DNA of 32,764 bases, taken from contig JAJZIP010000016.1 in NCBI GenBank assembly GCA_021810525.1, positions 1-32,764 on the forward strand. Reading direction: 5' to 3'. Source of the stretch: Actinomycetes bacterium (GTDB taxonomy: Bacteria; Actinomycetota; Acidimicrobiia; Acidimicrobiales; Acidimicrobiaceae). This document shows positions 12,691-32,764 of the stretch, piece after piece. The translations under genes and the position numbers were made by a program. Positions within the stretch are counted from its first letter, which is position 1. Each line of letters starts with the position of its first letter. Below the pieces are notes generated by a model. The model made no database searches and was not told the DNA's origin. It saw only the letters and a list, made by a program, of their open reading frames with translations.

Positions 12691-12696
12691 TAGAAT
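12691..12696 (+). promoter_or_regulatory. -10 box (TAGAAT) of asd, leaderless layout
   Basis: TAGAAT is followed by 8 nt and the GTG start at 12705. No ribosome binding site is present. It suggests asd has its own promoter in addition to possible read-through from lysC. Confidence 0.45.
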
Positions 12697-12704
12697 CTAC
12701 CTTT

Positions 12705-13721: not shown

Positions 13722-13763
13722 ATCCTGTGGCTCGGGCTTCTCGCCGGTCGAGAGCAGATCCTC

Positions 13764-14570: not shown

Positions 14571-14756
14571 TCGTACCTCGGATCATGTGCACTTTGCTGA
14601 CGCATAGCTAAACGTTTTCTAGTGTGAAAATATTTCGATCCTGCATTGCGGGCGCGGATGAAATATCGTCGGCGCTGTTGATAGGGCGTCTTGCTGGTAG
14701 CTTTGTAGTTCGATTGGTTCGGACACAAACCTGATCTAAAGACGAAAGGATTTTGC

Positions 14757-15254: not shown

Positions 15255-15308
15255 CAGAACCAGAGATATAGCTAGGAAATGAGTCAGCTGCGCCAAGTCG
15301 GTCAACTG

Positions 15309-16391: not shown

Positions 16392-16441
16392 GGCTACAGT
16401 CTGAGCGATTCTCTGATGGCCGGTTGCTGCTGATTTGTTTA

Positions 16442-16458
16442 GAAAGCTATAAGCTTTC
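16442..16458. promoter_or_regulatory. Perfect palindrome between yeiH-like gene and lysR: likely LysR operator
   Basis: GAAAGCT and AGCTTTC flank a 3-nt spacer (ATA). The site ends 3 nt before the lysR start codon and overlaps its probable -10 box (TAAGCT at 16450-16455, 6 nt before the ATG). LysR-type regulators usually bind such dyads in the gap to a divergent target gene and repress themselves from it. Confidence 0.5.
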
Positions 16459-16461
16459 CTT

Positions 16462-17367
16462 ATGCCACTTTCGCTTCCGGTTCCTGACCTGGTCTCACTT
16501 GATCTTCTTCGCAGCGTTGCCGAGTTCGGATCTATCCGTCAGGCGGCGATCGCCCACAATGTGAGCCAGCCTGCGGCGAGCATGAGATTGAAATCCCTCG
16601 AAAAGTCGCTGGGCTTGACGCTATTAGATCGAAGCGGCGGCAATGCGAGGTTGACGCCGGCCGGTGCAGCTGTGGTCGAGTGGAGCGCGCAAATTCTCGA
16701 GGGTGTCTCCGAGCTGTTGGTCGGCGCTCGGGCGCTTCGTCGCGAGGGGCAGAGCAGTTTGCGGGTGGCTGCAAGCATGACGGTAGCCGAATACATGGTC
16801 CCGGTCTGGTTGGTAAAGCTGAACTCAGTGGTGCCTGACATTTCAGTCTCTCTTCAGATGGGCAACACGGAGCAGGTTGCCGAGATAATCAGATCGCAGA
16901 AGGCGGACATAGGCTTTGTAGAGGGTTGGAGCGTTCCGCACGAGTTCAATCATCGCATTGTTGCAGATGACGATCTGGCAGTCGTAGTCCCGCCTGACCA
17001 CCCCTGGGCGCACAGGAAGAAGGTCGTCACAGCCAAAGTGCTTGCATCTACGCCGCTCATCTTGAGAGAGCTTGGCTCGGGCGCACGCGAGGTCTTGGGC
17101 AAGGCCTTGGAGGCTCACGGACTTCAGCCGCTTCCGTTCGTAGAGGTCGGTTCCAACACTGCGATCAAGGCCATGGTTCTTTCGGGCGTCGCTCCCGGAG
17201 TGCTTTCGAGTTTTGTCACAAAGGCCGAAGTGGAGACCGGAAGGCTGGTCGTGGTGAAGACCAGGGGAGTTTCGCTTGACCGCTCTATCAGGGCGATCTG
17301 GAGCAAAGGCGGTGAACAGACACCTTCGGCCAAGAGGCTTCTGAAGTTGATTTCGGACGGCCGTTGA
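16462..17367 (+). CDS. LysR-family transcriptional regulator
   Basis: 301 aa. The N-terminal winged helix-turn-helix spans about residues 8-66 (SIRQAAIAHNVSQPAASMRL, then LEKSLGLTLLDRSGG). The C-terminal part is a periplasmic-binding-like effector domain beginning near LRVAASMTVAEYMVPVWL. Position and orientation point to control of the divergent YeiH-type exporter, and by analogy with E. coli YeiE the signal may be a sulfur compound. Translation starts close behind a palindrome that is the probable autoregulatory operator. Confidence 0.92.
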   Translation: MPLSLPVPDLVSLDLLRSVAEFGSIRQAAIAHNVSQPAASMRLKSLEKSLGLTLLDRSGGNARLTPAGAAVVEWSAQILEGVSELLVGARALRREGQSSLRVAASMTVAEYMVPVWLVKLNSVVPDISVSLQMGNTEQVAEIIRSQKADIGFVEGWSVPHEFNHRIVADDDLAVVVPPDHPWAHRKKVVTAKVLASTPLILRELGSGAREVLGKALEAHGLQPLPFVEVGSNTAIKAMVLSGVAPGVLSSFVTKAEVETGRLVVVKTRGVSLDRSIRAIWSKGGEQTPSAKRLLKLISDGR

Positions 17368-17385
17368 CGGCCGCTGACGGCTGCA
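17356..17385 (+). repeat. Three tandem 10-mers across the lysR stop codon
   Basis: GACGGCCGTT, GACGGCCGCT and GACGGCTGCA follow each other without gaps and cover the TGA stop of the LysR gene (17365-17367). The unit is GC-rich and slightly diverged. It may be a slippage product; no hairpin followed by a T-tract is present. Confidence 0.6.
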
Positions 17386-17541
17386 TTCTTCGGGCGTCAG
17401 ACATCTCTACTCTCTGTGACGCTGCAGTTTTGGAGGGCTCCGGCGCGTTTGAAAACTCCGTCTAGGCAGCCAAGGAATAGCTGAACCGGAGTTGGTGTTG
17501 ACTCTGGAAAGGTCTTTGAGTACTGCCAAGAGGAGTGGACG

Positions 17542-18534
17542 ATGCCGGCTGTTTCCGTGGAGAACATTCTCGCACTGCCAAGAATACCCGCAATCCAAAG
17601 AGCCGTGCTAAGGGAAAGGCCGGTCAAGTCGGTGACGACAGCACCCAGTGGCTATGAAGGCGAGGGTTTTCCCGTGAGGCGGGCTTTCGCTGGTGTTTCA
17701 ACCGCTGAACTCGATCCCTTTGTCCATATGGATCAGATGGGGGAGGTCGATTATGCGCCCGGTGAGGCCAAGGGGACACCATGGCATCCTCATAGGGGCT
17801 TTGAGACAGTGACCTACATCATCGATGGTACCTTTGTTCACCAGGATTCGAACGGTGGTGGCGGGCTGATAACCAACGGCGACACTCAGTGGATGACCGC
17901 AGGAGCCGGAATTTTGCATATAGAGGCCCCACCAGAGAACCTGGTTTTGAGCGGCGGGCTTTTCCACGGTATCCAGCTATGGGTGAACCTTCCTGCGGCG
18001 AACAAGTTCAATAATCCGGCATATCAAGATATCCGGGCGCAAGAGGCGGCCCTGCTCTCCTCGCAGGACGGCGGTACTCTGCTACGCGTTATCGCTGGGG
18101 AGGTGGCCGGCCACAAGGGTCCCGGTTCGACCTTCACACCTATAACATTGATTCACGCCTCTGTGAGTCCTGGGGCAACATTGGAACTTCCGTGGAGCCC
18201 CGACTTCAACGCTTTGGTCTACGTACTGGCAGGCAAGGGGAGCGTGGGTTCGCAACATCGCCTGATCCGCAGTGGTCAGTTGGCCGTTTTCGGCGACGGG
18301 GATTGGCTCTCTTTCTCCGCGGAGTCCAAACAGGATTCCAATACCCCGAGTGTTGAAGTCCTAATCTTGGGCGGGCTGCCAATTCGTGAACGAGTAGTCC
18401 ATTACGGGCCGTTCGTGATGAATACCGAGGATGAGATAGTAAAGGCTTTGGAAGATTATAGGGCGGGAAGGCTCGGCACGATCCCCGCCGTAAACGTTCC
18501 CCACCGTCACCCCGGAGATATCGAGCTGCCGTAG
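17542..18534 (+). CDS. Pirin-family protein (bicupin)
   Basis: 330 aa, ATG preceded by AGAGGAG. The pirin signature is intact: WHPHRGFETVTYIIDG with metal ligands His82 and His84, DTQWMTAGAGILHIEAP with His126 and Glu128, then a second cupin domain from about residue 190. Metal-binding pirins act as quercetin 2,3-dioxygenases in some bacteria and as regulators in others. A short extra C-terminus rich in charged residues (EDEIVKALEDYRAGRLG) is typical of bacterial members. It is a stand-alone gene, 174 nt after lysR. Confidence 0.92.
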   Translation: MPAVSVENILALPRIPAIQRAVLRERPVKSVTTAPSGYEGEGFPVRRAFAGVSTAELDPFVHMDQMGEVDYAPGEAKGTPWHPHRGFETVTYIIDGTFVHQDSNGGGGLITNGDTQWMTAGAGILHIEAPPENLVLSGGLFHGIQLWVNLPAANKFNNPAYQDIRAQEAALLSSQDGGTLLRVIAGEVAGHKGPGSTFTPITLIHASVSPGATLELPWSPDFNALVYVLAGKGSVGSQHRLIRSGQLAVFGDGDWLSFSAESKQDSNTPSVEVLILGGLPIRERVVHYGPFVMNTEDEIVKALEDYRAGRLGTIPAVNVPHRHPGDIELP

Positions 18535-18656
18535 ATGTCGTGGGGTGTCCCTGGGACTTTGGGTCCACCCCGAGTCGGCCAACACTGAGATGCATGGGCA
18601 GACCGATACTTTTTTGCGAATCCCTCTGATGGTGTGATCAGCAAGATCTGCAGGCA

Positions 18657-18684
18657 TATAATGTTATTGCGACCTACTCGCAAT
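18657..18684 (+). promoter_or_regulatory. Consensus -10 box and overlapping palindrome before the APC permease
   Basis: A perfect TATAAT at 18657-18662 is followed 3 nt later by ATTGCGA-CCTAC-TCGCAAT (18666-18684), a dyad with 7-bp arms that covers the expected transcription start. This leaves an untranslated leader of about 65 nt before the ATG at 18734. The position suits an operator for a repressor; alternatively the dyad could form a small hairpin at the 5' end of the mRNA. Confidence 0.5.
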
Positions 18685-18733
18685 TAGAAGATTGTCAGAT
18701 TAATTTTTGGTCATCAGAGTTTCTAGAGGGTGA

Positions 18734-20191
18734 ATGTTACAGATGGCGGCTGCGAACCCGGAACAAGCACCAAATGCACTCAGGCAGAACCTGAAGATGG
18801 CGGACTTGGTAGCTCTCTCGGTTTCAAGCGTCGGACCTCTCTTCTCGATAGCAGCAACTGGTGGCGTGATGGCTGCGAACGCGGGGTTGTGGACGATTCC
18901 AGCTATAGCCCTCATTGCGATTCCATTTGTCCTTGCCTCATTTATATTCAGGCTCCTCAACAGGCACTTTCCGCATGCCGGGGCTTCATACCACTGGTCC
19001 GCCAGAGTCCTGGGCATCAAGGCCTCGCGCTTTCAGGCGTGGATTTTGATCCTGGCATATTTCGCATCGATTCCGCCGATCATAATCCCAGCCGCGAACT
19101 ATACCCTCAACTTGCTCTTTCCCTCTTACCATCCTTCAGCTTTCGCAGAGATCATGGCGGCGATGTTTTGGTCCGCCTTTGCTCTGGTCCCGCTCTTGAG
19201 GGGCTCAAGGCCGACAGCCAAGCTGACCCAGCTTTTCCTTGGCATCGAGTTGTTGTCGGTTATTTTTATCGCCGTTGTAGCCATCTTACGATGGCACGCA
19301 ATCGCAGTGCCGATGCATTTTGGAAAGCCACCAATAGGCGGAATAATCGTGACTGCGGTAGTAGCCGCGACGATACTCGACGGTTGGGAGATCGACAGCT
19401 ACGCCTCGGAGGAGGCAGTGAATCCTAAAGGGGATCCAGGCGTTGGTGGCATTGTCGGTGCGCTGATGGCACTTGGATTCTATGCTCTGATATACCCTTT
19501 GATGTTCGGTGAGACTCCGCTGAACCTGCTGTCCGGAGCCCCCAACCCAATGTCGGTTTGGGCTCAACGGCTGATGCCCCACGCGCCGTCACTGATGCTA
19601 ATCCCCGTCCTGGCCTCGACGGCGGGAGGGCTATGGCTCACATCGTTTATTCTGATTCGAGCTTTGCACGCCATGGGCAGGGAAGGTCTCGTATTTTCCG
19701 CTTTCGCCAAGATCAACTCTCGGGGAGTGCCCGGGATAGCTACCGTAGTCACCCTTTCTGCAGCTTTCTTGGTCACTCTCGGTCAGACCCTTTTCTCCTC
19801 TCTGAGCTTGTTCTTTGGACTCGTCTTGTCGGCCGCAGGTTTCTTTCTGGTTGCGGAGTTTTTCCTTGATTCGGTGACTGCAACAGTTTTTCTCTTTCGA
19901 ATGCACACATGGAAAAGCGGCGACAGGCCCCATGGGCACAAGGTGCTGCTTGCGGGTGCTGTGCTTTCAGCCCTTGCCTTCTTTTTCTTCATGGTCGGGT
20001 TCTTCATCTTCGGTCCAAAGGCGATCGGACCATCGGTCGATTACGTCGTGGGGACACTTATCGTGCTCGGCTTCGGCTTCGTGTTCTTCGCCAAGAGGCA
20101 CAGTTCCATCTACATGTTCCACGGGAACGCGGTGGAACCCGTTGGCGAAGCGGAGACGCTGGTCGGCTCGGTCGATAGGGCAAACGGCTAG
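18734..20191 (+). CDS. APC-superfamily amino acid/amine permease
   Basis: 485 aa, ATG with GAGGG 4 nt upstream; ATG 18743 is an alternative. About twelve membrane helices. The first helix carries the APC pattern SVSSVGPLFSIAATGGVMAAN (broken helix with small residues), followed by the long PHAGASYHWSARVLG segment, and helix 6 has ILDGWEIDSYASEEAVNP. These fit proton-coupled uptake of amino acids or related amines (PF13520). The substrate is not deducible. The tail ends in a short cytoplasmic stretch. Its promoter looks strong and regulated. It is convergent with the P-type ATPase at 20303. Confidence 0.9.
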   Translation: MLQMAAANPEQAPNALRQNLKMADLVALSVSSVGPLFSIAATGGVMAANAGLWTIPAIALIAIPFVLASFIFRLLNRHFPHAGASYHWSARVLGIKASRFQAWILILAYFASIPPIIIPAANYTLNLLFPSYHPSAFAEIMAAMFWSAFALVPLLRGSRPTAKLTQLFLGIELLSVIFIAVVAILRWHAIAVPMHFGKPPIGGIIVTAVVAATILDGWEIDSYASEEAVNPKGDPGVGGIVGALMALGFYALIYPLMFGETPLNLLSGAPNPMSVWAQRLMPHAPSLMLIPVLASTAGGLWLTSFILIRALHAMGREGLVFSAFAKINSRGVPGIATVVTLSAAFLVTLGQTLFSSLSLFFGLVLSAAGFFLVAEFFLDSVTATVFLFRMHTWKSGDRPHGHKVLLAGAVLSALAFFFFMVGFFIFGPKAIGPSVDYVVGTLIVLGFGFVFFAKRHSSIYMFHGNAVEPVGEAETLVGSVDRANG

Positions 20192-20302
20192 CATTTCGAT
20201 GGCCATTTGGCGGCTCTCGGGCTAGTGTCGACACAGCTTCAGCGTGAGCAGTGCATCTCTGTGCGATTGTCTTGTGCCGGAATGGTTGGGTTTCGAAATC
20301 TT

Positions 20303-22651
20303 CTATTTGGGCGAGGGAAGCGTAGGCCTAATTATCTGAGCGAGGCTCATTGCCAGCAAGAATCTCACCACTATGGCGAGGAGAAATCCAGCGGCGACGA
20401 TCATGATGATGGTCGAGTTGGGGATGGACAGTTCGAAGAAGGAGCGTCCTTGGGGAAAAAGGAGTATCCCGGCGTAGATGGCGAAAAGGCCTAGGCATAA
20501 GAAGATGACCGCCAGACCCCTCATTAAGCTCGAGGCTTCGATGAGAATGATAAGGTAGAGCATCACCAGCAGCAGCACCGAAGTTGCGATGGTCCGAGCC
20601 TCTACGAGCGAGAGGTCGAAGATTTCAAGCGCAGCCAGATACGCGGCTGTCACTCCGAGTCCCGCGCTCAATCCTGCTGGGATAGAGAATTTGGCCACCT
20701 CACGGAGAAATCCCGCGAAGCTGACTCTTCCCTGGCTTGGCGCCAGAGCTACGAAGAACGCCGGAATTCCCACTCCTAGAGATGCGATGAGAGTCATGTG
20801 ACGCGGCAGGAGAGGGTATGCGGTCGGCGATATAACGAAGGCCAGGATCATAAATGCTGTGACGGCAGACTTGGTGACGAAAAGCTTGGTCACCCTTTGA
20901 AGGTTCCTTAGGGTCGTCCGGCCCTCGGCTACCAGCTGCGGCAGGACTGCGAAGTCGTCGCGAATGAGCACCAGATCGGCGACGCTCTTGGCCATCTGGA
21001 CCCCGCTGCCCTGGGCGATCGCGAGCCGGGCGGCCTTCATCCCTGGCACGTCGTTTACTCCGTCCCCGACCATCGCGACGTAATGCCCGTCTGATAGCAG
21101 CGCCTCGATAACTCGTTTTTTCCCTTCGGGAGAAATCCGCCCTATGACATTGCGCTCTCGCAAGAGATCAAGGAGGGCTCTGTCATCCTCTGGGAGGTTT
21201 CGTCCGTCTATCGCACCTTCGCTGGTCGGTATGCCAACGTCCCCAGCGATTGCGAGCACTGTCTCCGGGCGGTCACCGGATAGCACTTTGAGCTGTACTT
21301 TCTGAGACTGGAAGAACTCCACCGTCGTGCGTGCGTTCGGGCGCAGGTTCTCGGCGAGTATGACCAGGCCAAGCGGTATCAGATTGGGTGGAGGACCTTC
21401 CATCGGGTCTACGGCTCCAAATGGTTCAGCCCTTCGAGCTATCGCAACAACCCTTCGTCCAAAGCTGGCCTCCAGCTCGACGCGTTTCGACAGCTCTCCC
21501 ATGGGAAGTAGTTCTGGCGCTCCGAGAACGTAGCTGATCTCATCAACACGGACCCCACTCCAACGCCAACGGGACGAAAACGGGATCTCCTGCGTAGCGG
21601 CGCGAGGCTCGCAGGGAAAACTCTTGCTTATCGCTCTCAGAGTGGAGTTTTTCCCACTGGAGGCGGAGGCGAATAGGCAAAGCGCCCTATGCAGCTTCTC
21701 TTCTCCGCCGTGCGGCGCAGCTGTTTCGATGACCCTGAGGTTCGCTTCGGTGAGAGTGCCTGTCTTGTCGAGGCAGATTATGTCGACAGAGGCGAGGGAC
21801 TCCATGGCGTTGATCTGTTGCGCGAGCGCCCCATGTCGAGCCATGCGAACCGCCGAAACCGCGAAGGTGAGGTTGACGAGCAGGATCAGCCCCTCAGGGA
21901 CGAGTGGCACGATTGCGGCGACGGACGTGGACACAGTGCTTCCAATGGGCGTTCGACGATGCCAGAAGGCGTAGCCGAGCAGAATGCTTAGAGGGATCAT
22001 CGTGCCTACCAGGATGTACAACAGCCTGTTCATCGTCGTTTCTAGCGGAGAGCGGGGATGCCTGAACTTTCGGGCCTCCCCAGTTATTTGTGCTGCATAG
22101 CTTTCGTTTCCGATCGCGCTGATTCTGTAGCGTGCTGTGCCCTCGGCAACGAACGACCCTGAATGCAGCTCGTCTTCACTTGCGTGATGGACTGTACGAG
22201 ACTCGCCGGTGAGGATCGACTCGTCCAACTGAAGACCCTCACTCGATTCGACCTTTCCGTCCGCTATCAGCTGATCACCCGGCTGGAGGAGCACGAGGTC
22301 GCCTTCTACGACCTCTTCGCGGGGAAGTCTCGTGGGCTTTCCATCGCGAAAGACCATGGCATTTGGCACAACCAATGCGGACAGGCGGTCCAGTGCTAAC
22401 TTCGCACGGACTTCCTGGACTGTTCCGATGAGGGTATTGACCACAAGAATCCCCAAGAAGAGTGCGTCTTGCCACGACCCATATATGAGGGTAACCGTTC
22501 CAAAGAATGCCAGAATCAGGTTGAAGACGGTAAAGACATTGGCACGGATGATACTCGCGTATGATCGTGAGGTTCTGAGAGTCTCGAGCGGGCCACGTTC
22601 CGATAAGCGGTGGGCAGCCTCAGCGGTTGATAGTCCTTCGTGGCTATCCAT
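20303..22651 (-). CDS. P-type cation ATPase, CtpE-like
   Basis: 782 aa, all domains present: actuator motif LTGES (147-151), membrane helix M4 with PLVPEGLILL (249-258), phosphorylation site DKTGT (Asp295), a small nucleotide-binding domain with LGAPE, then SGDRPETV and the hinge GDGVND, followed by the C-terminal helices. The VPEGL helix, the short N-domain and the LGAPE variant of KGAPE are as in mycobacterial CtpE, a Ca2+ uptake ATPase. The ion is therefore possibly calcium, but this is inference. It starts 99 nt after the end of a second, unlike P-type ATPase on the same strand. Confidence 0.88.
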   Translation of the reverse strand: MDSHEGLSTAEAAHRLSERGPLETLRTSRSYASIIRANVFTVFNLILAFFGTVTLIYGSWQDALFLGILVVNTLIGTVQEVRAKLALDRLSALVVPNAMVFRDGKPTRLPREEVVEGDLVLLQPGDQLIADGKVESSEGLQLDESILTGESRTVHHASEDELHSGSFVAEGTARYRISAIGNESYAAQITGEARKFRHPRSPLETTMNRLLYILVGTMIPLSILLGYAFWHRRTPIGSTVSTSVAAIVPLVPEGLILLVNLTFAVSAVRMARHGALAQQINAMESLASVDIICLDKTGTLTEANLRVIETAAPHGGEEKLHRALCLFASASSGKNSTLRAISKSFPCEPRAATQEIPFSSRWRWSGVRVDEISYVLGAPELLPMGELSKRVELEASFGRRVVAIARRAEPFGAVDPMEGPPPNLIPLGLVILAENLRPNARTTVEFFQSQKVQLKVLSGDRPETVLAIAGDVGIPTSEGAIDGRNLPEDDRALLDLLRERNVIGRISPEGKKRVIEALLSDGHYVAMVGDGVNDVPGMKAARLAIAQGSGVQMAKSVADLVLIRDDFAVLPQLVAEGRTTLRNLQRVTKLFVTKSAVTAFMILAFVISPTAYPLLPRHMTLIASLGVGIPAFFVALAPSQGRVSFAGFLREVAKFSIPAGLSAGLGVTAAYLAALEIFDLSLVEARTIATSVLLLVMLYLIILIEASSLMRGLAVIFLCLGLFAIYAGILLFPQGRSFFELSIPNSTIIMIVAAGFLLAIVVRFLLAMSLAQIIRPTLPSPK

Positions 22652-22750
22652 CGCCTGCCTGCCAGCATTCCTTGGCCGGGTTTTCCGGTAGGCCGACTTC
22701 GCGAGGTCTTAGAGGCAGTTCTGTGTCTGGGCCGGAGCACAGCGCTCTAC

Positions 22751-25309
22751 TCATCGATTCCTCACTAATTTGTAGATTTCGAACCACGCAATTCCTAAAA
22801 GGCCCGCCAGCACGGAGATGAGCCATTCTCGTGCCGTCATGGGTCCGAAGCCGAATGGGCGCCTGAGGGCGGCCACGTTTACGAGAGCCATCAAAACGAT
22901 GGCTGCGCCGGCTAGGATCCATTTGACGCTAGGGTTCTTTCTTTGACGGAACAGCTGGAAGATCGAGAGTTTCCATGATCGGTTCGCTAGAATCAACGAC
23001 AGGTTTCCGACCATCAGCGTGGTGAATGTCATAGAGCGCACTATATCGTTAGGTCTCGATCCGAGGACAGTCCAGAGGTAGACCCCGAGCACGGCTGCGA
23101 GTAACGATATGCCCTGAAGCCCCGATAGCGTCAATACGGTTTTGGAGAAGAGAGGTTCGTCGACCCGCCTGGGCTTCTGCTCCATTATTTTCGGGTCGAT
23201 CCTTTCAGCTTCGAAAACGAATGAAAGTGCCGGGTCGATTATCAGCTGCAAGAATGCGATCTGGACCGGAAGAAGGACTAAAGGCCACGCCGCGACGAAC
23301 ACGGGTATGAGCGACATGGCGAATATTGAGACGTGAACAGCAAGAAGGTACGAAACCGCCTTGCGTATGTTGTCGTAGATGCCCCGACCTTGGCGGATTC
23401 CTTCGACGATGGAGGAGAAGTCGTCATCGGTGATGACGAGTGCCGCAGCTTCGCGTGCCACGTCCGTACCTCTTGCACCCATTGCTATCCCTATATCTGC
23501 GGCGCGCAGAGCCGGGGCGTCGTTCACTCCGTCACCGGTCATTCCCACAACCTCGCCGTTTTCTTTTAACGCCCTTATAAGTTGAAGCTTTTGTTGGGGG
23601 ACCATACGGGCGAACACGCTGACGCTCTGGATCCGACGGTCGAGTTCTTCATCGCTCATCGATTCGAGCTCCGTCCCGGTGATGCAGCCTGCGGAGTAGT
23701 CGAGGCCGACCTCCTTCGCAATCGCAAGGGCCGTTCCCTGGTAGTCTCCAGTGATCATAATCACTCTTACACCTGCACGGGTACACTCGGCGACGGCATC
23801 TGCAACCCCTGGCCGCAATGGGTCGCGCAGGCAGGCCAAACCGAGATATTCGAAATCAAAGTCACGGGGATGGTTCGGTAGCGCGTTGTCCTGGTCAAGC
23901 CTCGACCTAGCCACCGCCAGTACCCTTTCACCGGTGGCGGCGGCTGTTTCAACCAACTCAGTAAGCTCTTTTGTGTGCTGCGCATCCATGTGGCATAGCT
24001 CTGCCACTGCTTCGGGAGCGCCTTTCGCGGCTATGACATAGTGGCTCGCACTGTTTGGCTGCCATACGTGCGAGAGTGCCAGCAGATCCTCTGAAAGAGG
24101 GTATTCGAGCACCAGCTTCCAGTCATCGTGGCGGTATCCCGTTCCTGCTAGGTAGGTGTCTTCCAGGCGTCTAAAAGACTTGTCCATGGGATCGAAAGGG
24201 TCGATCGGAGAGGCAAGCACGGCGTATTCGACGAGTTCAAGGAACGGTTGGGGAAGTGGTCTGCCGTCCAGTTTGAAGGGTTGATCATTGATGATCAGTT
24301 CTGCCACGGTCATGGCGTTCATCGTCAGCGTGCCGGTCTTGTCGACGCAGATCGCTGTCGCTGAACCAAGTGTCTCTATCACGGGTGCATGCCGCGCCAG
24401 GACGCTCTTTTGAGACATTCTCCACGCCCCCAGCGCCAGAAAGACCGTCAGTATCACCGGCAGCTCTTCTGGCAGCGTGGCCATGGCCGTTCCGATCCCG
24501 GCCAGAAAGCCTTCTAGCCATCGGCCTCTCGTGATTCCGTACGCGATCACGACCACTGAGGCGGCGATTAGGCTCAGACCAGCCACTATCCAGATCAGGC
24601 GGGTGATTTTTTGTTGAAGAGGCGTTTTCTCCGTCTCTATCGTGCTCAGTGCTGTGCCTATGCGCCCGAGTTCGGTGTCGATGCCAGTGTGTTTTACCAG
24701 TGCTATTCCATGGCCTTTTACAACAAGGGTTCCAGAGAATACCCAGGGCGTCCCATCACCCCCGGGTTTACCGATCTCCGCTCCAGCTTTCTCAAGATTC
24801 ACCGGAGCTTTCCGGACTGGGACGGACTCGCCGGTCAGGGCGGATTCGTCCACCAATATGTTCACGCCGTCCACGAGCACCGCATCGGCAGGAACTCTGT
24901 CTCCCTCAGCAAGCAGTGCAACGTCGTCGCGGACGACCTCGAATCCGGCGATGCGAGTTTGTCGACCGTCTCGCATAACGAGAGCCCGGGGTGACGACAT
25001 GTCGCGGAGCGCTGAAAGCGCGTTCTCGGTCTTTCGTTCCTGATAGATGGAGATTGCGATCACGACGACGATGAAAGACATCAGGATTGAACCGTCAAGC
25101 GGCTCGGAAAGCAGGAAGTTTATAATCCCAGCTACCAAAAGGAGTAGAAGCATCGGTTCGCGCACTACGTCCCATGACTGTTTGGTCAGGGAGCGCTTCT
25201 TTGTCGCGGGAAGTTCGTTCGCCCCTTCCGTCTTGAGTCGAAGCGCGGCTTCTTGAGAGCTAAGACCCTTTAGTAGCATCTCCTCGGTCACCGTATTTCC
25301 GCGATCCAT
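22751..25309 (-). CDS. P-type cation-transporting ATPase (HAD-IC subfamily)
   Basis: 852 aa from the ATG at 25309, chosen because AAGGTGG lies 4 nt upstream and the cation-ATPase N-terminal domain (GLSSQEAALRLKTEGANELP) begins right after. The frame extends upstream to 25441, but that part looks non-coding. Motifs in order: LTGES (158-162), M4 with TLPEELPVILT (PEELP at 280-284), DKTGT (Asp323), KGAPE, MITGDYQGTA, and GDGVNDAPAL. The M6 region reads QIAFLQLIIDPALSFVFE, as in many bacterial P2-like pumps annotated as calcium or general cation exporters. The ion cannot be fixed from sequence. It is the upstream neighbour of the CtpE-like pump. Confidence 0.9.
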   Translation of the reverse strand: MDRGNTVTEEMLLKGLSSQEAALRLKTEGANELPATKKRSLTKQSWDVVREPMLLLLLVAGIINFLLSEPLDGSILMSFIVVVIAISIYQERKTENALSALRDMSSPRALVMRDGRQTRIAGFEVVRDDVALLAEGDRVPADAVLVDGVNILVDESALTGESVPVRKAPVNLEKAGAEIGKPGGDGTPWVFSGTLVVKGHGIALVKHTGIDTELGRIGTALSTIETEKTPLQQKITRLIWIVAGLSLIAASVVVIAYGITRGRWLEGFLAGIGTAMATLPEELPVILTVFLALGAWRMSQKSVLARHAPVIETLGSATAICVDKTGTLTMNAMTVAELIINDQPFKLDGRPLPQPFLELVEYAVLASPIDPFDPMDKSFRRLEDTYLAGTGYRHDDWKLVLEYPLSEDLLALSHVWQPNSASHYVIAAKGAPEAVAELCHMDAQHTKELTELVETAAATGERVLAVARSRLDQDNALPNHPRDFDFEYLGLACLRDPLRPGVADAVAECTRAGVRVIMITGDYQGTALAIAKEVGLDYSAGCITGTELESMSDEELDRRIQSVSVFARMVPQQKLQLIRALKENGEVVGMTGDGVNDAPALRAADIGIAMGARGTDVAREAAALVITDDDFSSIVEGIRQGRGIYDNIRKAVSYLLAVHVSIFAMSLIPVFVAAWPLVLLPVQIAFLQLIIDPALSFVFEAERIDPKIMEQKPRRVDEPLFSKTVLTLSGLQGISLLAAVLGVYLWTVLGSRPNDIVRSMTFTTLMVGNLSLILANRSWKLSIFQLFRQRKNPSVKWILAGAAIVLMALVNVAALRRPFGFGPMTAREWLISVLAGLLGIAWFEIYKLVRNR

Positions 25310-25517
25310 CCGACCACCTTCGATGAAGGACAATTCCGGGGGTCGGACGCCCCTCGACCCGGCGGTGAGCCTCGGCCGGCTTTTCGATGTGCCGATCCTA
25401 TGTACCAGGATTTTATCGAACGCCGGACTCTCTATCAACAAGAGACTGCAGTGGTGTGTTCTCTTCGCTGTCCTGGCGGCAGTTGGCTCTGCAAATAGGG
25501 CAGGCGAGATATACCGC

Positions 25518-26564
25518 TTATCCTTGGAGGGTCAGACGACGGCCCCTGAGAGTTGCCAACGAGAGAGCCAGGGCGACGGCGAGGGTGACCGACAGCAGCA
25601 CAACGACACCCCACTCGTTTGGCTGCATCCAGTTGGTCACGTTGTCACCGACTGCGACCCCGCCGTATATGTTCGGTGGGGGGTGCGGGGCATCCAGTTG
25701 TGGCTGGTAGCTTTCGGACACCAGAACATAGTTCCCCGGACTGTTGGCGTAGAGCCTGCCCACGACGCGACCGATTTTGCCATGGCTGCTGTACTCGGGC
25801 ATCGGTGAAACTGCGGTCACCTCAACGGCATGGCCCGATGGGTCGATGACTCTGAGCGCAAGATCACCGAGGGAGGGGTAGCCCGAGTAAACATTTCCAC
25901 CCTCCGCGTATACATAGAGCGTACGTGGGCTGCTGGTCTTGACAATGAGACTGCCCGGAACCCTTGTGCGGACAAAGTCGTCAGCATGGAGGGTCAGCAA
26001 GGTTTGGGCAGCGAAGAGCCATATGAAGCTGCCTGCGATCCCGGCGAGTGCCACCAGAGCCGCCAGCTTGTATCCGGACAGAGCACCCCCGTTTCCTGCT
26101 GGTCGGGAGGAGGAAGTTTGAGAGTCCTTGCGCGTAAGCCAAAGGCATATCGAAAGCGTTAACAGCGCGGCGGCTGCGAACACCGCAATCAGGAAGTTGG
26201 CGAGTTTGGTCGAAGTCGAGAAGCCCATCTCTTCGAGGGTTGAGCCAGCAGTCTCCTCGAGAGCGAGGAACACTGCGAGGGAGAGCAACCATACTGCCAG
26301 GCGGCCCCTTCGTGAGCCGAGTCGAGCTGAGTGGACCCCGAGTATGAGACCCACGACAAGAACCCAGATCACCAGTACCAGGGCTGGCAGCTCGCGCATA
26401 AAGGCATTCCACCCAGTAATTCGCTCGGGCTGATTCATCACTGCGCTGGTAAGCATGTACAGCTCCCAGAGAAAGAGGATCACGGAAGAGATGACAACCC
26501 CCAAGAATGAGAGCAGCGCAAGATTTCCCTGTCGATTGCTTGGCGGTGCAAGGGGGTGATTCAT
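25518..26564 (-). CDS. Membrane protein of unknown function with an extracytoplasmic beta domain
   Basis: 348 aa from ATG 26564, preceded by GGGGAGA; an upstream in-frame start at 26627 lacks a ribosome site. I do not recognise a family. Helices are at about residues 15-38, 55-77, 88-106, 120-143 and 165-187. A soluble region rich in Gly, Ser and Tyr (about 190-305; ADDFVRTRVPGSLIVKTSSP through GNYVLVSESYQPQL) follows and looks like a small beta-sandwich. A last helix (EWGVVVLLSVTLAVALAL) and a basic tail end the protein. It lies 208 bp before the P-type ATPase start on the same strand, so a role in the envelope or in ion transport is possible, but nothing proves it. Confidence 0.8.
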   Translation of the reverse strand: MNHPLAPPSNRQGNLALLSFLGVVISSVILFLWELYMLTSAVMNQPERITGWNAFMRELPALVLVIWVLVVGLILGVHSARLGSRRGRLAVWLLSLAVFLALEETAGSTLEEMGFSTSTKLANFLIAVFAAAALLTLSICLWLTRKDSQTSSSRPAGNGGALSGYKLAALVALAGIAGSFIWLFAAQTLLTLHADDFVRTRVPGSLIVKTSSPRTLYVYAEGGNVYSGYPSLGDLALRVIDPSGHAVEVTAVSPMPEYSSHGKIGRVVGRLYANSPGNYVLVSESYQPQLDAPHPPPNIYGGVAVGDNVTNWMQPNEWGVVVLLSVTLAVALALSLATLRGRRLTLQG

Positions 26565-27055
26565 AGCTATCTCCCCTCGGCGACTCTGTGGCTTGGCGAA
26601 TATGGTCCAACCGGAGATCCGTTCCAAGATCCGATTCCAGTTGAGCGCGGTAGCGGTAAAGTGAGCGTGTCCGGATGCATTCTGGCAGCCGGTCGAACTT
26701 TCGAGCCTTGTATCCTGCCTCCTTGATTAGGCAGCGGAGAGGCTATCCGGCTGAGGGCGGAGGCGCGCTGGTTGCTCCAGAATCTCCGTGAGCATGTTTC
26801 TTTGCGAAGATCAGCGCAGATCGGGAGCTGGGTGTGAGGTAAGCAATCCCAAGAAAATGCGGCAGACGGTACCTTGCTCTCAGTTGGAGCAGCTTCAAGC
26901 CTCGTAATCGCCATCGCGACTCCTCCGACGGTTGAGGAGAGCACAGCAGGCCGTCACCGCCAAGACTAGTGGCACTCGACAGGCCCAGCTGTAATTGCCC
27001 GACGAGAGCACCCGAGCGAGCCCATGATAGACATCGCTCAACCACCGTGAGCAGA
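26565..27055. other. 491-bp stretch between tRNA-Pro and the membrane protein gene, no supported gene
   Basis: Minus-strand frames are open at 26567-26944 and 26743-27045, but they overlap each other in different frames, lack ribosome sites and have no recognisable product. One frame gives a hydrophobic VPLVLAVTACCALL followed by basic residues and a stop near 26895, which could be the end of a decayed membrane protein. No hairpin with a T-tract and no tRNA-derived repeat is seen. I cannot assign anything here. Confidence 0.5.
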
Positions 27056-27132
27056 TGGTCGGGAAGGCGGGACTTGAACCCGCGGCCTCAGCGTCCCGAA
27101 CGCTGCGCGCTACCAAGCTGCGCTACTTCCCG
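27056..27132 (-). tRNA. tRNA-Pro (anticodon CGG)
   Basis: Reading the minus strand, all arms pair: acceptor CGGGAAG/CTTCCCG, D arm GCGC-loop-GCGC, anticodon stem CAGCG/CGCTG around loop TTCGGGA (anticodon CGG), variable loop AGGCC, T arm GCGGG/CCCGC around TTCAAGT, discriminator A. The 3' CCA is encoded (27056-27058). The anticodon reads CCG proline codons. Confidence 0.97.
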
Positions 27133-27190: not shown

Positions 27191-27595
27191 TCAGTTGGCT
27201 GGTGCAAAGGCAGTGTCTTCGAATTGGCCAGAGGTGAGCATTTCGTTCACCGCCCTCTTGATCTTGAGCGAGTCCAGGGGCTTGATGATGAAACCATCGG
27301 CACCGGAGCGCCGGGTCATGAATACATCAGCCCTTCTGTCGAGAAGTACCAGTACTTTTGTCGGGTCGATTCTCTGGGCTTTTTCACCCAGCCTGATTTC
27401 CAGCGTTATGGCGGTTGCTCCCATATTGGCAACCTGCAGATCAACTATCACGAGGTCGGGGCTCTCCTCTTTGAGCAACTCCATGAGCTCTTTGCCCGAT
27501 GAGAGTTCCACTACCTCGTTCTTTGGCCCTGCTACTGCCGAGCTGACCAAGTTCTTCAGGTTTTGCGAGTCAGAAACTATGTATATCAATGGCAC
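27191..27595 (-). CDS. Stand-alone receiver-domain protein, divergent
   Basis: 134 aa, GTG start, a single CheY-like domain without an output domain. The phospho-acceptor is probably Asp52 in LVIVDLQVANMG, and the conserved Lys is Lys105 in GFIIKPLD. The domain is atypical: the usual acidic pair after strand 1 is reduced to IVSDS (one Asp), and the switch Thr/Ser position in strand 4 reads LVLLDRRAD. It may therefore respond to phosphorylation poorly or act as a protein-binding module. It starts 38 nt after the ArsA-like pair on the same strand and has its own TAGGTT box 7 nt upstream. Confidence 0.78.
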   Translation of the reverse strand: MPLIYIVSDSQNLKNLVSSAVAGPKNEVVELSSGKELMELLKEESPDLVIVDLQVANMGATAITLEIRLGEKAQRIDPTKVLVLLDRRADVFMTRRSGADGFIIKPLDSLKIKRAVNEMLTSGQFEDTAFAPAN

Positions 27596-27602
27596 GGTAA
27601 AG

Positions 27603-27608
27603 AACCTA
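27603..27608 (-). promoter_or_regulatory. -10 box (TAGGTT) of the receiver gene, leaderless layout
   Basis: On the minus strand TAGGTT is followed by 7 nt (CTTTACC) and the GTG at 27595. No ribosome binding site is present. Confidence 0.45.
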
Positions 27609-27633
27609 CTTTATTTTTGCAGAAATTGCACTT

Positions 27634-28713
27634 TCATGGTGAAACTGAGTTTTCAAATGTCGATCTGGAATCCACAAGAACCTCCCCGATCTCTTGGATC
27701 TCGCCAAGTGACCCAATGTCGTGAGGCAGAAGAGGGACCAGGATGTGTCTGTCCTTTCCAACTATTACCGAGAGTCTAGATAGCTGTTCGAGTTCGGCTG
27801 ATCGGAGACGGACCAGATATTCGAGGTTTTCCCGGATTTCCTTTGGCACTTCGATGCGACCGTCTTCCAGCTCGTTGCCGAATTCCGGGGTAACCCTGTT
27901 GGAGATGATCATGTCGACATCGAGTTCGTACTCGTCCAGCCTTGAGGCGAAGTAGAGCGCTTCGTCGATCGTGTCCTTGTGGGTTCCGGTCACTAGCACA
28001 AATGAGGTCGAATCTTGTGCCAAAAGGTCCTGAACCTCGGCCGCCCGCTTCTTGAAGCCCTCCTCCATCCCTTCAAATGCCTGGAAGAACTCGACTGCGT
28101 CGGAGACGACCTGTGCTCCCACCACTTTTGAAATTGTCCTCAACAATATGCGCGTTGCCACCGTCACTGGCCGGAAGACGCTTTGCGATGGGGATATGAG
28201 GAGCCGAAACATTCGGTTTTCCAGAAAGCCGACCAAGCGTTTGGGAGCATTGAGGAATTCGATAGCGTTCCTGGCCGGAGGAGTGTCCACAACGAGGAGG
28301 TCGAAACGGGGGTCTGACGCAAGTTCATGAAGCTTCTCCATCGCCATGTACTCTTGAGTTCCGGAAAGGTTCTCGGTAAGGTTTTGGTAGATAGTGTTAT
28401 GAAAGATCTTCTCGACTTGTTCTGGCGAGGTCGCAAACTTCTGAACCAGCTCGTCAAAGGTTGAGTTGGGATCGAGCATCACAGCCCAGAGGTCGAACTC
28501 GGGCGCGGTATCGATCTTTCTGGGAGTGTTGGCGAGTTCAGCAATGCCCATCGCGTCGGCCAAGCGCTTGGCGGGATCGATAGTGACCACGCAGACATGT
28601 CTCCCGGCCTTGGCGGCCATATATCCGAGCGCGGCTGCGGTGGTGGTCTTGCCGACACCTCCGGTGCCGAGACAGACGATCACTTTGGATCGTTCAATTA
28701 TGTCGAGGCTCAT
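27634..28713 (-). CDS. ArsA/GET3-like ATPase, catalytic member of a pair
   Basis: 359 aa. The deviant P-loop is GTGGVGKTT (16-24, Lys22), followed by VVTIDPAKRLADAMG and the switch region VVDTPPARNAIEFL. The protein has one ATPase domain, not the duplicated form of E. coli ArsA, and lacks the ArsA arsenite-binding Cys set and the Get3 CxxC. Its start overlaps the stop of the second ArsA-like gene by ATGA, so the two are translated together and probably form a heterodimer. Actinobacteria commonly carry such a pair (M. tuberculosis Rv3679/Rv3680). The cellular role is not settled; arsenic resistance is unlikely, as no arsB, arsC or arsR is near. Confidence 0.9.
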   Translation of the reverse strand: MSLDIIERSKVIVCLGTGGVGKTTTAAALGYMAAKAGRHVCVVTIDPAKRLADAMGIAELANTPRKIDTAPEFDLWAVMLDPNSTFDELVQKFATSPEQVEKIFHNTIYQNLTENLSGTQEYMAMEKLHELASDPRFDLLVVDTPPARNAIEFLNAPKRLVGFLENRMFRLLISPSQSVFRPVTVATRILLRTISKVVGAQVVSDAVEFFQAFEGMEEGFKKRAAEVQDLLAQDSTSFVLVTGTHKDTIDEALYFASRLDEYELDVDMIISNRVTPEFGNELEDGRIEVPKEIRENLEYLVRLRSAELEQLSRLSVIVGKDRHILVPLLPHDIGSLGEIQEIGEVLVDSRSTFENSVSP

Positions 28714-29612
28714 GTCTTGGCCCGAATCTGGAGTTCGACGATATCAGCCAAGTACCTGATGTCGTCTTTGCTGAGTTCGACCGTAGGCACCAGAGGAACT
28801 TCTATTGGCTTGAGTCCGAACGCCTTTGCAGCCATGGTCTCGAAGCGCTTTTGCGACTGCGATCGAGTCCTCATGTACTCTGCGGCTTGGTAGAAAGGGG
28901 ACGTGGACTCGAGAAAAGAGAGATCTTGCACGCTGTCATTGCCAGGTATCGATGGAAGCACGGAGTTGATGAAGAGTGCACAGGGCACGATGCCGGAGTT
29001 CTCCTTCAGCTGCTTCATAGTCTCGATGCTTTCTTTGACCGGGGTCTCCTCGGCGATGGTCACGAAGGCCACCCCGAGCCGAGTTGGGTCGTCGAGCATT
29101 TCGAGGACCTCTTTGGATTGCTTCCGCAGTGGGCCGGCGGCGGCGATATCGGCCAGCCCTTTTGGCGTCGCAATCAATCGAAGAAAGTGTCCGGAGGCCG
29201 GCGCGTCGAAAATGATCAGGTCTGCGGCGTCGGATCTTTCCATCTGTTTTATCTTTGCTAGTACCAACAGGTCGGCAATACCGGGTATGGCTGTCGAGAT
29301 GATGCTGGCCAGCCCTGTCGATGAAAGGCGTTTTCCAAGCTGGCCAAGACCGTGCTCGTTCAGGTAGCTAATAAGCACCTGGCCTGGCTCAAGGGAGCTG
29401 AAGCTTAGCAGCGGGTCTTCCTTGGCCAGAAAGTGGGTTCCTGAAGTTCCTGCTATTACTGCGACACGCTTGCCTACCTTTGTGCCAAGTTCTGCTAGAA
29501 CCCTGGCTACGGTCGTCCTGCCAGTGCCGCCCTTTCCCACAACGACAAGAACCTTCTGGGCAAACAGGTCAAAGATCTTCTTTTTGTGACCTATATTGGC
29601 CGAATTTGGCAA
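28710..29612 (-). CDS. ArsA/GET3-like ATPase, second member, P-loop Lys replaced by Arg
   Basis: 300 aa from the TTG at 29612. This start is chosen over a TTG at 29636 because that codon lies inside a good -10 box, while GGAGAG lies just upstream of 29612. The P-loop reads GKGGTGRTT (26-34): the Lys that normally contacts the phosphates (GKT) is Arg32, while the signature Lys27 of the deviant Walker A is kept. The switch region is LIIFDAPASGHFLRL, like the ArsA DTAPTGH motif. Sequence length and order match the upstream partner of paired actinobacterial ArsA proteins. With the Lys changed, ATP turnover may rest mainly on the partner. It is 55 nt downstream of VKOR. Confidence 0.88.
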   Translation of the reverse strand: MPNSANIGHKKKIFDLFAQKVLVVVGKGGTGRTTVARVLAELGTKVGKRVAVIAGTSGTHFLAKEDPLLSFSSLEPGQVLISYLNEHGLGQLGKRLSSTGLASIISTAIPGIADLLVLAKIKQMERSDAADLIIFDAPASGHFLRLIATPKGLADIAAAGPLRKQSKEVLEMLDDPTRLGVAFVTIAEETPVKESIETMKQLKENSGIVPCALFINSVLPSIPGNDSVQDLSFLESTSPFYQAAEYMRTRSQSQKRFETMAAKAFGLKPIEVPLVPTVELSKDDIRYLADIVELQIRAKT

Positions 29613-29635
29613 ATCTACTCTCCGCTCCGCATACA

Positions 29636-29641
29636 AGTATA
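29636..29641 (-). promoter_or_regulatory. -10 box (TATACT) for the ArsA-like pair
   Basis: TATACT on the minus strand matches five of six consensus positions; about 17 nt upstream is a weak -35 (CTGATG). Transcription from here would give a leader of roughly 17 nt containing GGAGCGGAGAG before the TTG at 29612. It implies that the ATPase pair can be expressed apart from the DUF929-VKOR genes. Confidence 0.4.
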
Positions 29642-29666
29642 GGAGAGCCAGCCTAGAACATCAGAT

Positions 29667-30134
29667 TCACTGTATCCGAGCCGGCGAATCCACGAAATAG
29701 TCATACACCACGAGGGCGAAGATAATGACGGTTATCACATGCACCGTGGTACACCATAAACATATCGAGTTGATTATAAGAAGCTCGGCAGACACCAGCC
29801 AGAGCACAAATGCCACGCCCAAGACCATCGATCCCAATCTCGGTACCCTAAGACTGGCCTGTCTGAATCCCCAGGGCGAATTGAGGACCGACAGGTAGAC
29901 GAAATAGATCAGACCCAAGATCGCCACTGGTATTCCGAGAAAGTATGACTGTGCTGAACTGGTTACCTTGGCACAGTCGATCACACCGGTCGAGGGGCAG
30001 GCGAGAATGCCTGGTGAGGTGAAGTGCGCGATCGTCAGATAGATCGTGATCGGAATTCCAACCAAGCTGAGTCCGAAGCAGACGTACCTGACCGGCGTCA
30101 TCGAGGTGGATCTGGTGTCCTCAATCATTTCCAT
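29667..30134 (-). CDS. Vitamin K epoxide reductase (VKOR) family protein
   Basis: 155 aa with four to five membrane helices. The four VKOR cysteines are present: the loop pair Cys46 and Cys54 (ACPSTGVIDC) and the CxxC pair Cys125/Cys128 (SICLWCT) near the quinone. The conserved Ser after the first helix-loop region (VTSSAQSYFLGIPVA) also fits. In actinobacteria VKOR reoxidises a DsbA-like partner and passes electrons to menaquinone, driving disulfide formation in exported proteins. The partner is very probably the DUF929 thioredoxin-like protein encoded 103 nt upstream. The start is ATG, with GGAG 9-12 nt upstream. Confidence 0.94.
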   Translation of the reverse strand: MEMIEDTRSTSMTPVRYVCFGLSLVGIPITIYLTIAHFTSPGILACPSTGVIDCAKVTSSAQSYFLGIPVAILGLIYFVYLSVLNSPWGFRQASLRVPRLGSMVLGVAFVLWLVSAELLIINSICLWCTTVHVITVIIFALVVYDYFVDSPARIQ

Positions 30135-30237
30135 CTTCTAACTCTCCGTTCAAACTGGCAGTTTTCCTAGGTCCCAAATCTTTCTCTGCTCTTTCAGATG
30201 TTGTCCTTTGGAAACGGCTTGCGCAGCTTGGCGTCCA

Positions 30238-31086
30238 CTACTTGAGTGCCTTTTCTATCTGCTGGATATAGCCGAGGTTACAGACATTGGATGGCTGGTT
30301 GTTATCGATCTTGCAGACAGTTGCGGTGATGATGTTGGCAGTTCCGATGATCGCCTTGGCCGGTGCCGAAGAGGGTTGTGCCAGGCTCCCGGCGATTGTC
30401 TGCAAAGAGAGTCCCTGAAGGAGGCCAGGGTTGTAGCTCGCTCCGCCGAGCACATACTTGTTAGCAAAGTCGACGAAAGGAATGCCGTCAGCAGTTGGTG
30501 TATATGGCGGCTTGTCCCAGGTGGAAAGCAGATTGTTCTGCGCTGTAGTCGGAGTTTGCAGCGTGGTGTAGCTTCCGTTTGATGCTATGTTGGTCTGCAT
30601 TTCGACGCCCTCGAAGGCAATGTATTTTGAGCTGTAGCTCGAACCGTAGAAACTGAACGTCTGTGTATTTGGATAGACGTCATTGGCTCCGGAGGAGGTT
30701 GCGCCCAGTTTCTGAAAGGTCCCGAATCTAGACAAAGCGCTGACGATGGCCCATCTCTGCGCGGCGCAGTAAGGGCAGTAATCGGCTCCCATGTACAGTA
30801 CCTCTGGGAGGCCGCCCTTTGTCAGAGACGATGTCTCTTTTATCGAAGAAGGCTTTGGCAAGGCTGAGTCGTACCCTATCGAAGCAAATGCGCTTTCTGG
30901 CACTCCGGTAGTAGCTGCGACCACATCGGATGGGGCAACAGTTGAGCTTGTTACCTTGCTCGACGAGGACTTATTGATTTTGACCAGGATCAGCGCTGCG
31001 ACGATCAGGAGCACGACAACGATCGATATCAAGGTGATGATCTGCCCACGCTGTGCAGATGCCGCCTTCTTCTTTTGTTTTGCCAT
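30238..31086 (-). CDS. DUF929 membrane-anchored thioredoxin-like protein (CPYC)
   Basis: 282 aa from ATG 31086, chosen because GGAGG lies 4 nt upstream; a TTG at 31146 in the same frame has no such site. The N-terminus is basic (KQKKK), followed by one membrane helix (about 15-36), a Ser/Thr-rich linker and a thioredoxin-like domain with GADYCPYCAAQRW (Cys104, Cys107). The C-terminal part has a Pro-containing DGIPFVDFANKY loop, probably the cis-Pro side of the active site, and two more Cys (TVCKI and NVCNLG). The domain should lie outside the membrane. The neighbouring VKOR suggests it is a DsbA-like oxidase that VKOR recharges. DUF929 is known from archaea and actinobacteria but poorly studied. 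Confidence 0.88.
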   Translation of the reverse strand: MAKQKKKAASAQRGQIITLISIVVVLLIVAALILVKINKSSSSKVTSSTVAPSDVVAATTGVPESAFASIGYDSALPKPSSIKETSSLTKGGLPEVLYMGADYCPYCAAQRWAIVSALSRFGTFQKLGATSSGANDVYPNTQTFSFYGSSYSSKYIAFEGVEMQTNIASNGSYTTLQTPTTAQNNLLSTWDKPPYTPTADGIPFVDFANKYVLGGASYNPGLLQGLSLQTIAGSLAQPSSAPAKAIIGTANIITATVCKIDNNQPSNVCNLGYIQQIEKALK

Positions 31087-31269: not shown

Positions 31270-32061
31270 GTGAGTAAGCAGATTTCGCTGAGCCTTTCAA
31301 AAAGTGAAGTTGAGGGAAAAACAATCGGATACCTCTCGGGGGGAGAAGGGCCGCCTCTTCTGTTCATCCATGGTTGGGCAGTCACCCCTTTTGTCTACCG
31401 GTCGGCGCTGGATCTGGCGGCTCGAACCGGCAACAGGGTCATTGCGCCGTTTCTGCCCGGCTTTGGGCCCTCAGAGTCATTTGATGGCCAGTGGCCCTCC
31501 TCGTTGGAGGTAAGCGAGTGGATCGAGACCTTTCTGGAGCGGTCCGGTGAGGAAAGACCGGCGGTGGTAGTCGGCCACTCTCTCGGGGGAGGAATTGCCG
31601 CCAGCTATGCCGCTCATTTTCCAGGCTCGATAGAACGGCTCTTTCTGATGTCTTCGGTTGGCGGGCATGTCACACCCCAAGAGGGCTTTGCCCAGACAAG
31701 GTCCGCTCTTGGCTGGTCTCTGTCGCTTCCAATGGACCTGTTGGCGTCGGAGGTTACCTATGGCAATATGGTCACCATGATCGGCACCGGTATGATCCAG
31801 CTGATCCGTGACCCGATCGGGCTTTGGAGGCTCTCCAGGGTGGCGAGGAGCTATTCGCTGTTTTCGGAGCTCGAGAAGATCGTTGGTTCCGGGGCCAAGG
31901 TGTTTGTGATTGGAGCTGAAAGCGACAAGGTCATAACTCGGGATGCAGTAGCTCGATTGGCTAATTACGCCTCAGTTGATCCGATCTGGGTTCCCGGCAC
32001 GCACAGCTGGATCAGTGCGCATCCGGAAAAGTTTGTCGAGGTGCTGGCTAGCTCTTGCTGA
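31270..32061 (+). CDS. Alpha/beta hydrolase
   Basis: 263 aa, GTG start; TAAAAT lies 9 nt upstream and no ribosome site is seen. The fold motifs are clear: LLFIHGWAVTPF (oxyanion region), the nucleophile elbow VVVGHSLGGGIAA, an acid candidate in VIGAESDKVIT, and the catalytic His in VPGTHSWISAHP. The cap region between is short and hydrophobic. The family includes BioH-like esterases, lipases and C-C hydrolases; the substrate cannot be told. It is convergent with selB: the two stop-codon ends overlap by 14 bp. Confidence 0.87.
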   Translation: MSKQISLSLSKSEVEGKTIGYLSGGEGPPLLFIHGWAVTPFVYRSALDLAARTGNRVIAPFLPGFGPSESFDGQWPSSLEVSEWIETFLERSGEERPAVVVGHSLGGGIAASYAAHFPGSIERLFLMSSVGGHVTPQEGFAQTRSALGWSLSLPMDLLASEVTYGNMVTMIGTGMIQLIRDPIGLWRLSRVARSYSLFSELEKIVGSGAKVFVIGAESDKVITRDAVARLANYASVDPIWVPGTHSWISAHPEKFVEVLASSC

Positions 32062-32764
32062 ACTCCCTCACAAGTGCAGGGCCCGGTCGTCTGAGGTCGC
32101 CGGCTCTTCTGGTGAATCCATGTGTGTCCAGGTAGCCAACGAGAGCCAGGAGGTACTTTCGTGAGGTGTCAAGCTTGTCCCTGAGCTGGGATACGGTAAA
32201 TCCGGCCTCCTCTGTCAGAGATAGTTCCCAGATCACTTCTTTTGCCCTAGAGAGTGCGAGGGGCGAGTAATAGATTCCCTCACAGTCGATCACGAGTCCC
32301 TGTCTTACGAGCTCCCGCAACTGCTGACGGTCGACTCCGTCTGGCGACGGCGGCTTGAACAGCGAACTCTCCAACTCCTTGATGAAGGGATGGCTGCTAA
32401 GCGTGTCCCTTATCCGGCCGAACCTGGAGCTGTAGACCCTTGAGGAGTCGACGGTAAGATCTTGGATGCCTTGAAGAACCGCTCTCGAGATCTCATCCAG
32501 CTCTGAGATATCGAAGCCAAGTTCGCCAGCGTTCACGGCTCTTTCAGTCAGGTCACGAGTGATCTCAGCTTCAAGCGATTCCGAGATGACATATCGCTCC
32601 CCAGCATTGGGTGAAACGTTCTGGCCCGTCATCTTGTAGAGAAGCCCGGTGTCAATAAAGCCGCGTTCTTTGATGATCTGGCTGATGTCGAAGGGTGGGG
32701 CAGACTTGCTCACAGGAGTGAGAGGGTTCACACTTGTGACTTCTCCTCCGGCGACTGTCTCCCG
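32048..32764 (-). CDS. selB: Selenocysteine-specific elongation factor SelB, 3' part (gene runs off the window)
   Basis: The frame is open from the window edge; 238 codons are seen. The first residues (RETVAGGEV) are the end of the EF-Tu-like barrel of SelB (usual pattern ETxGGGxV). Then come the winged-helix repeats that bind the SECIS hairpin: a middle one around RDTLSSHPFIKELESSLF and the diagnostic last one, FTVSQLRDKLDTSRKYLLAL followed by HGFTRRAGDLRRPG. The GTPase domain lies beyond the window. SelB brings Sec-tRNA to UGA codons, so this organism probably makes selenoproteins. selA, selC and selD are not in the window; selA is often the next gene upstream. Confidence 0.93.
   Translation of the reverse strand, partial: RETVAGGEVTSVNPLTPVSKSAPPFDISQIIKERGFIDTGLLYKMTGQNVSPNAGERYVISESLEAEITRDLTERAVNAGELGFDISELDEISRAVLQGIQDLTVDSSRVYSSRFGRIRDTLSSHPFIKELESSLFKPPSPDGVDRQQLRELVRQGLVIDCEGIYYSPLALSRAKEVIWELSLTEEAGFTVSQLRDKLDTSRKYLLALVGYLDTHGFTRRAGDLRRPGPALVREFSKS

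Follow-up and report, generated by a model that had tools for sequence, protein, structure and literature searches.

The ATPases BagA and BagB of Mycobacterium tuberculosis (Rv3679 and Rv3680) are a heterodimeric pair with the Get3/ArsA fold, and chains of both subunits are present in PDB entries 6BS3-6BS5, in which the pair was solved together. Mycobacterial bagAB has been linked to the toxicity of glycerol and of nitric oxide, and citrate tolerance resulted from insertions in its M. smegmatis homologues (PMC10597346). The DsbA-VKOR system of M. tuberculosis combines a membrane-anchored, thioredoxin-like CxxC oxidase (Rv2969c) with a quinone-linked VKOR. Rv3143/MSMEG_2064, an orphan single receiver without output domain, is a subunit of respiratory complex I, where Rv3143 binds NuoD (PMC9274095). 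The ArsA/Get3 ATPase fold is also that of eukaryotic and archaeal Get3 of the GET pathway.

Counterparts of these components were analysed in a stretch of 32,764 nucleotides (the window), which is part of an incomplete assembly of 343 contigs from an uncultured Acidimicrobiia bacterium, with a genome completeness of about 91%. Five minus-strand genes follow one another closely, encoding a DUF929 protein (30238-31086; Pfam PF06053, E 5e-26), a VKOR-family quinone reductase with a presumed recharger role (29667-30134; PF07884, E 1e-22), a BagA-like (Rv3679-like) ATPase subunit with a TTG start (28710-29612; PF02374, E 3e-14), a BagB-like (Rv3680-like) ATPase subunit (27634-28713; PF02374, E 2e-35) and an orphan single-domain receiver (27191-27595; PF00072, E 1e-10). 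Pfam searches and open reading frames bear out the gene run as described in the first-pass annotation, including the CPYC motif of DUF929, the four cysteines of VKOR, the ATGA overlap of the ATPase genes and the single receiver. Apparent BagA-BagB and BagB-receiver fusions among the long open reading frames were rejected: only one domain was present in each, and the excess length was a spurious 5' extension across the adjacent gene, in DNA of high GC content. On the basis of gene content, synteny, co-occurrence and residue conservation, we consider it probable that the run comprises three functionally separate modules with predicted biochemical activities, namely DUF929-VKOR, a BagAB pair with a single ATP site, and a receiver without obligatory BagAB partner, which share an old chromosomal block conserved across the class.

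The intergenic gaps from DUF929 through VKOR, BagA and BagB to the receiver are 103, 54, -4 and 38 bases, the negative value being the 4-base overlap of BagA and BagB, so that a single five-gene transcript is possible; that the five genes could share one transcript is a point against the modular reading. The separate promoter previously proposed in front of the ATPase pair was not confirmed: the consensus scan gave no sigma-70-like site on the minus strand, the sole such site lies on the plus strand, and sites were fewer than in shuffles. With a TATACT hexamer in this region, a promoter may still precede the pair.

Judged by adjacency and co-occurrence, DUF929 and VKOR are a genuine two-gene unit. 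A VKOR gene lies at most 400 bases downstream of 27 of the 34 DUF929 copies, and across 108 genomes of the order VKOR was present in 27/31 with DUF929 and 11/77 without it (Fisher p ~1e-12, an optimistic value because the genomes are related). The pair also occurs far from BagAB (loci L136-L154). The window DUF929 protein combines the PF06053 match with an active-site CxxC, and CP[YF]C is present in 32/34 copies; towards the C-terminus, a further pair of cysteines (C258 and C269) is invariant in 40 aligned rows. The window VKOR domain carries both a loop cysteine pair (CPSTGVIDC) and a CxxC (CLWC), the latter motif being present in 28/28 VKOR relatives examined. In the AlphaFold model of DUF929 (pLDDT 90.6), helix 14-38 forms an N-terminal membrane anchor. 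For its fold, Foldseek returned no match below E 0.1, and VIA-align placed thioredoxins first at Z 6-7 (below 8), in agreement with the earlier assignment of DUF929 as thioredoxin-like from sequence (PMC3091736).

The likeliest functions are those of a membrane-anchored thiol oxidase for DUF929 and of its quinone-linked recharger for VKOR: DUF929 would oxidise thiols of exported proteins, and VKOR would reoxidise DUF929 and pass the electrons to quinone. The same division of roles had been suggested in the first reading of the sequence and gains support from adjacency and co-occurrence. The arrangement resembles the DsbA-VKOR system of M. tuberculosis, but the oxidase is here a DUF929 protein (PF06053) and by Pfam no member of the DsbA family; its predicted fold contains a large insertion, and it has the second conserved cysteine pair. 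Many relatives have two DUF929 copies near BagAB (L097, L225, L229 and others), which in L097 flank one VKOR; these are perhaps two oxidases with one shared recharger.

The two adjacent ArsA-fold genes are each closest in the PDB to their own mycobacterial subunit. For the BagB-like protein the top match was 6bs3_B (Rv3680; E 1e-74), and for the BagA-like protein 6bs3_A (Rv3679; E 4e-16), a nominal lead, with arsenite ArsA ATPases within two orders of magnitude. A role in arsenic resistance is less likely, since Rv3680 is a much nearer relative of BagB than ArsA is. NCBIfam names the two proteins BagA and BagB, at scores under the equivalog cut-offs (BagB 323 bits, cut-off 521; BagA 84 bits, cut-off 400). 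By these comparisons, the ATPases are homologues of the M. tuberculosis Rv3679/Rv3680 heterodimer, but we do not file them as equivalogs. The first-pass annotation of an ArsA/Get3-like pair was right as to the fold, but overlooked the homology to BagA/BagB and hence a solved structure and mycobacterial mutant phenotypes. A further likeness to the M. tuberculosis pair is that WhiB is a frequent neighbour of BagAB in other actinobacterial classes; the window pair differs in being followed by a receiver with no WhiB nearby, and in a BagA that lacks the P-loop lysine and lies far under its equivalog cut-off. It differs from Get3 as a predicted heterodimer with one predicted catalytic site, and the CxxC zinc motif of Get3 was not seen by eye in either window subunit. 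Many Acidimicrobiia have a second, more distant BagAB pair (L076-L095), in most loci sampled within a DUF3107-BagA-BagB-PdtaS-WhiB neighbourhood, the PdtaS-like protein being a histidine kinase; in the incomplete window genome one BagAB pair only was found.

The signature lysine of deviant Walker A ATPases acts across the dimer, as established for Get3 and MinD. For a motif survey, 142 sequences of each subunit were aligned, drawn from three groups: the first pair, the second pair and other classes. The signature lysine was found in 142/142 BagA and 0/142 BagB sequences, and the P-loop lysine, switch I DPA and switch II DTPP of BagB in 142/142 each; the P-loop lysine of BagA is lost in 8/142, the window protein included. 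The window BagA motif GKGGTGRT keeps the signature lysine and has arginine for the P-loop lysine, and BagB of the window has GTGGVGKT, DPA and DTPP intact. As the signature lysine occurs only in BagA and acts across the dimer, the sole complete ATP site would be that of BagB, completed by BagA. Conservation thus predicts one working ATP site, with BagB as the candidate catalytic subunit. BagA and BagB would form a Get3-like heterodimer in which the signature lysine of BagA completes the BagB site in trans, with the window BagA as a non-hydrolysing partner. By opening and closing with ATP, this heterodimer would act on a client that is hydrophobic or a membrane protein.

The distribution of the receiver marks it as a class-wide single-copy family rather than a dedicated BagAB switch. 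It gave a single match each in 239/296 class genomes. A contig profile search with the 8 closer receivers (a profile of all 38 gave no conserved stretch) led to named loci that belong for the most part to Acidimicrobiia/Acidimicrobiales assemblies. Phospho-acceptor D52 and K105 are invariant in a 38-row alignment, the usual Thr/Ser before the fourth helix is replaced, by leucine (L85) in 95% of sequences (CheY position matched by hand), and a DR..D motif is present; the AlphaFold model (pLDDT 92.7) has a plain receiver fold. The receiver adjoins BagB, co-directional and close, in 73/77 class loci (81 examined, minus three with a second-type pair only and one at a contig end) and adjoins it in 67/67 named relatives with enough flank, an adjacency beyond chance. 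It was found beside BagAB in 0/40 loci of other classes and beside the second pair in 0/20 loci. This pattern would suit a receiver dedicated to regulating the Acidimicrobiia BagAB ATPase, a role that we nevertheless consider unlikely, since the receiver is kept in 17/17 listed same-order genomes without BagB match (BagB threshold 1e-35), where WhiB, NfeD and tRNA-Pro usually remain as its flanks once BagAB is gone, and since it has moved to a site apart from BagAB in G027 and G287. The same 17 genomes speak against the earlier idea of the receiver as switch of a five-gene system. It would act by protein contact, with a partner that need not be BagAB.

Such a partner could be sought in respiration, the receiver being the Acidimicrobiia counterpart of Rv3143/MSMEG_2064 and working in complex I; we regard this as possible, though doubtful. 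The Rv3143 family model matched 28/38 receivers and gave the best E-value (5e-15) of the families listed; three class genomes had a reported match to this model (E <= 1e-8), and in each of them the matching protein is the class-wide receiver. The GGM and R..D.[FW]LA features are common to the receiver and the Rv3143 family in the alignment, and Foldseek places mycobacterial complex I (chain O) first for the receiver model, by a nominal lead. On the other side, the Rv3143 model (NF050825) scored 28 bits for the window protein and up to 41 in class genomes at a cut-off of 200, which places the window receiver far under the family threshold, and with the profile, PleD, AdeR and others scored higher. 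Furthermore, NuoD is present and the receiver absent in 15 reduced genomes (f29); co-occurrence of receiver and NuoD is otherwise uninformative, with NuoD in 52/52 genomes. A further difference is K105, kept in the receiver but absent from the aligned MSMEG protein. The similarity to this orphan receiver is thus one of weak profile match and similar fold; the tie may be suggestive, but is weak and under any family cut-off.

The conserved block has the order SelA-SelB-WhiB-NfeD-[BagA-BagB]-receiver-tRNA-Pro-Asd-aspartokinase. In the window, tRNA-Pro(CGG) (27056-27132, minus strand; ARAGORN) is the constant downstream neighbour of the receiver, found within 2.5 kb in 83/94 loci. Upstream, the C-terminal part of SelB (32048-32764, minus strand; PF09107) is cut by the contig end; SelB is a conserved neighbour, near 44/94 receiver loci, and an alpha/beta hydrolase (31270-32061, plus strand; PF00561) is a variable member, near 18/94. 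Asd/aspartokinase lies just a few kb downstream of receiver and tRNA-Pro in many relatives; in the window it is found at 11414-13721, some 13-14 kb off, and the stretch in between (13722-27055) includes two P-type ATPases (20303-25441). A gene for a membrane protein of the NfeD family runs divergently from BagA in most class loci, as it does in several other classes (for example L066:9782-11239, L047:7550-9058 and L069:9843-11204); no NfeD turned up in the genome of the window, at its completeness of about 91%.

WhiB is near 77/94 receiver loci and, in other classes, near 29/40 BagAB loci; in Acidimicrobiia its orientation is divergent from that of BagA. An antisense WhiB gene stands between VKOR and BagA in 55/57 other loci with DUF929 or VKOR upstream of BagA. 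It is still there in L038, of the same family as the window, but missing in the window, so that the unbroken five-gene run is probably derived. The link between the modules might be regulatory, with the redox-sensing regulator WhiB controlling BagAB and DUF929-VKOR jointly as a redox-stress set; the position of WhiB and the involvement of mycobacterial bagAB in the toxicity of nitric oxide and glycerol (PMC10597346) speak for it. We think this rather unlikely: it is drawn from gene order, and the window has lost WhiB between the modules despite 6 WhiB genes elsewhere in its genome. Less likely again is a WhiB-centred redox island, in which DUF929-VKOR, one-site BagAB and an Rv3143-related receiver would jointly answer the state of the respiratory quinone pool.

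DUF929-VKOR was found near BagAB in 47/67 named relatives; in the retrieval of this set, a relative that bears DUF929 came first. In the tree, such loci fall mostly into one clade (55/68 rows), plus the family of the window; the tree was made with FastTree only and the window is on a long branch, which leaves its placement unsure. Most BagAB loci sampled outside this clade are without DUF929-VKOR, and 88/150 BagAB loci examined have WhiB/NfeD upstream and no DUF929-VKOR. Conversely, five loci keep DUF929-VKOR, WhiB and the receiver and have no BagAB. The position of DUF929-VKOR near the ATPase pair is nevertheless conserved well beyond close relatives, so that the confinement to close relatives named at the outset as evidence against a functional link was not observed.

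The proposal in the first-pass annotation was a joint targeting-plus-folding system, in which BagAB would deliver membrane or exported proteins for oxidation by DUF929-VKOR, with the receiver as switch. The shared strand and short gaps in the window, together with the 47/67 relatives above, would accord with it. Yet with WhiB antisense between the modules in nearly all other loci that have both, and with DUF929-VKOR, BagAB and the receiver each found without the others, a joint system is unsupported, and we judge it highly improbable. As a counter-point to the three separate modules that we prefer, the receiver beside BagAB in almost all class loci and DUF929-VKOR near BagAB in most of one clade represent a long-kept order, which can reflect function or descent. 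In the parts of the literature accessible to our search, neither a link of the receiver with BagAB nor one of DUF929 with VKOR was found described.

The locus is an assembly of known parts in a conserved neighbourhood, of which the DUF929-VKOR pairing, the one-site prediction for BagAB and the class-wide receiver are worth testing. DUF929 gains a concrete candidate role in Acidimicrobiia, as the oxidase partnering VKOR. BagAB becomes a sharp test case, with one predicted catalytic site, on BagB and lysine-activated by BagA, across the sampled phylum, and the receiver represents an orphan regulator that most of a bacterial class holds as a single copy.
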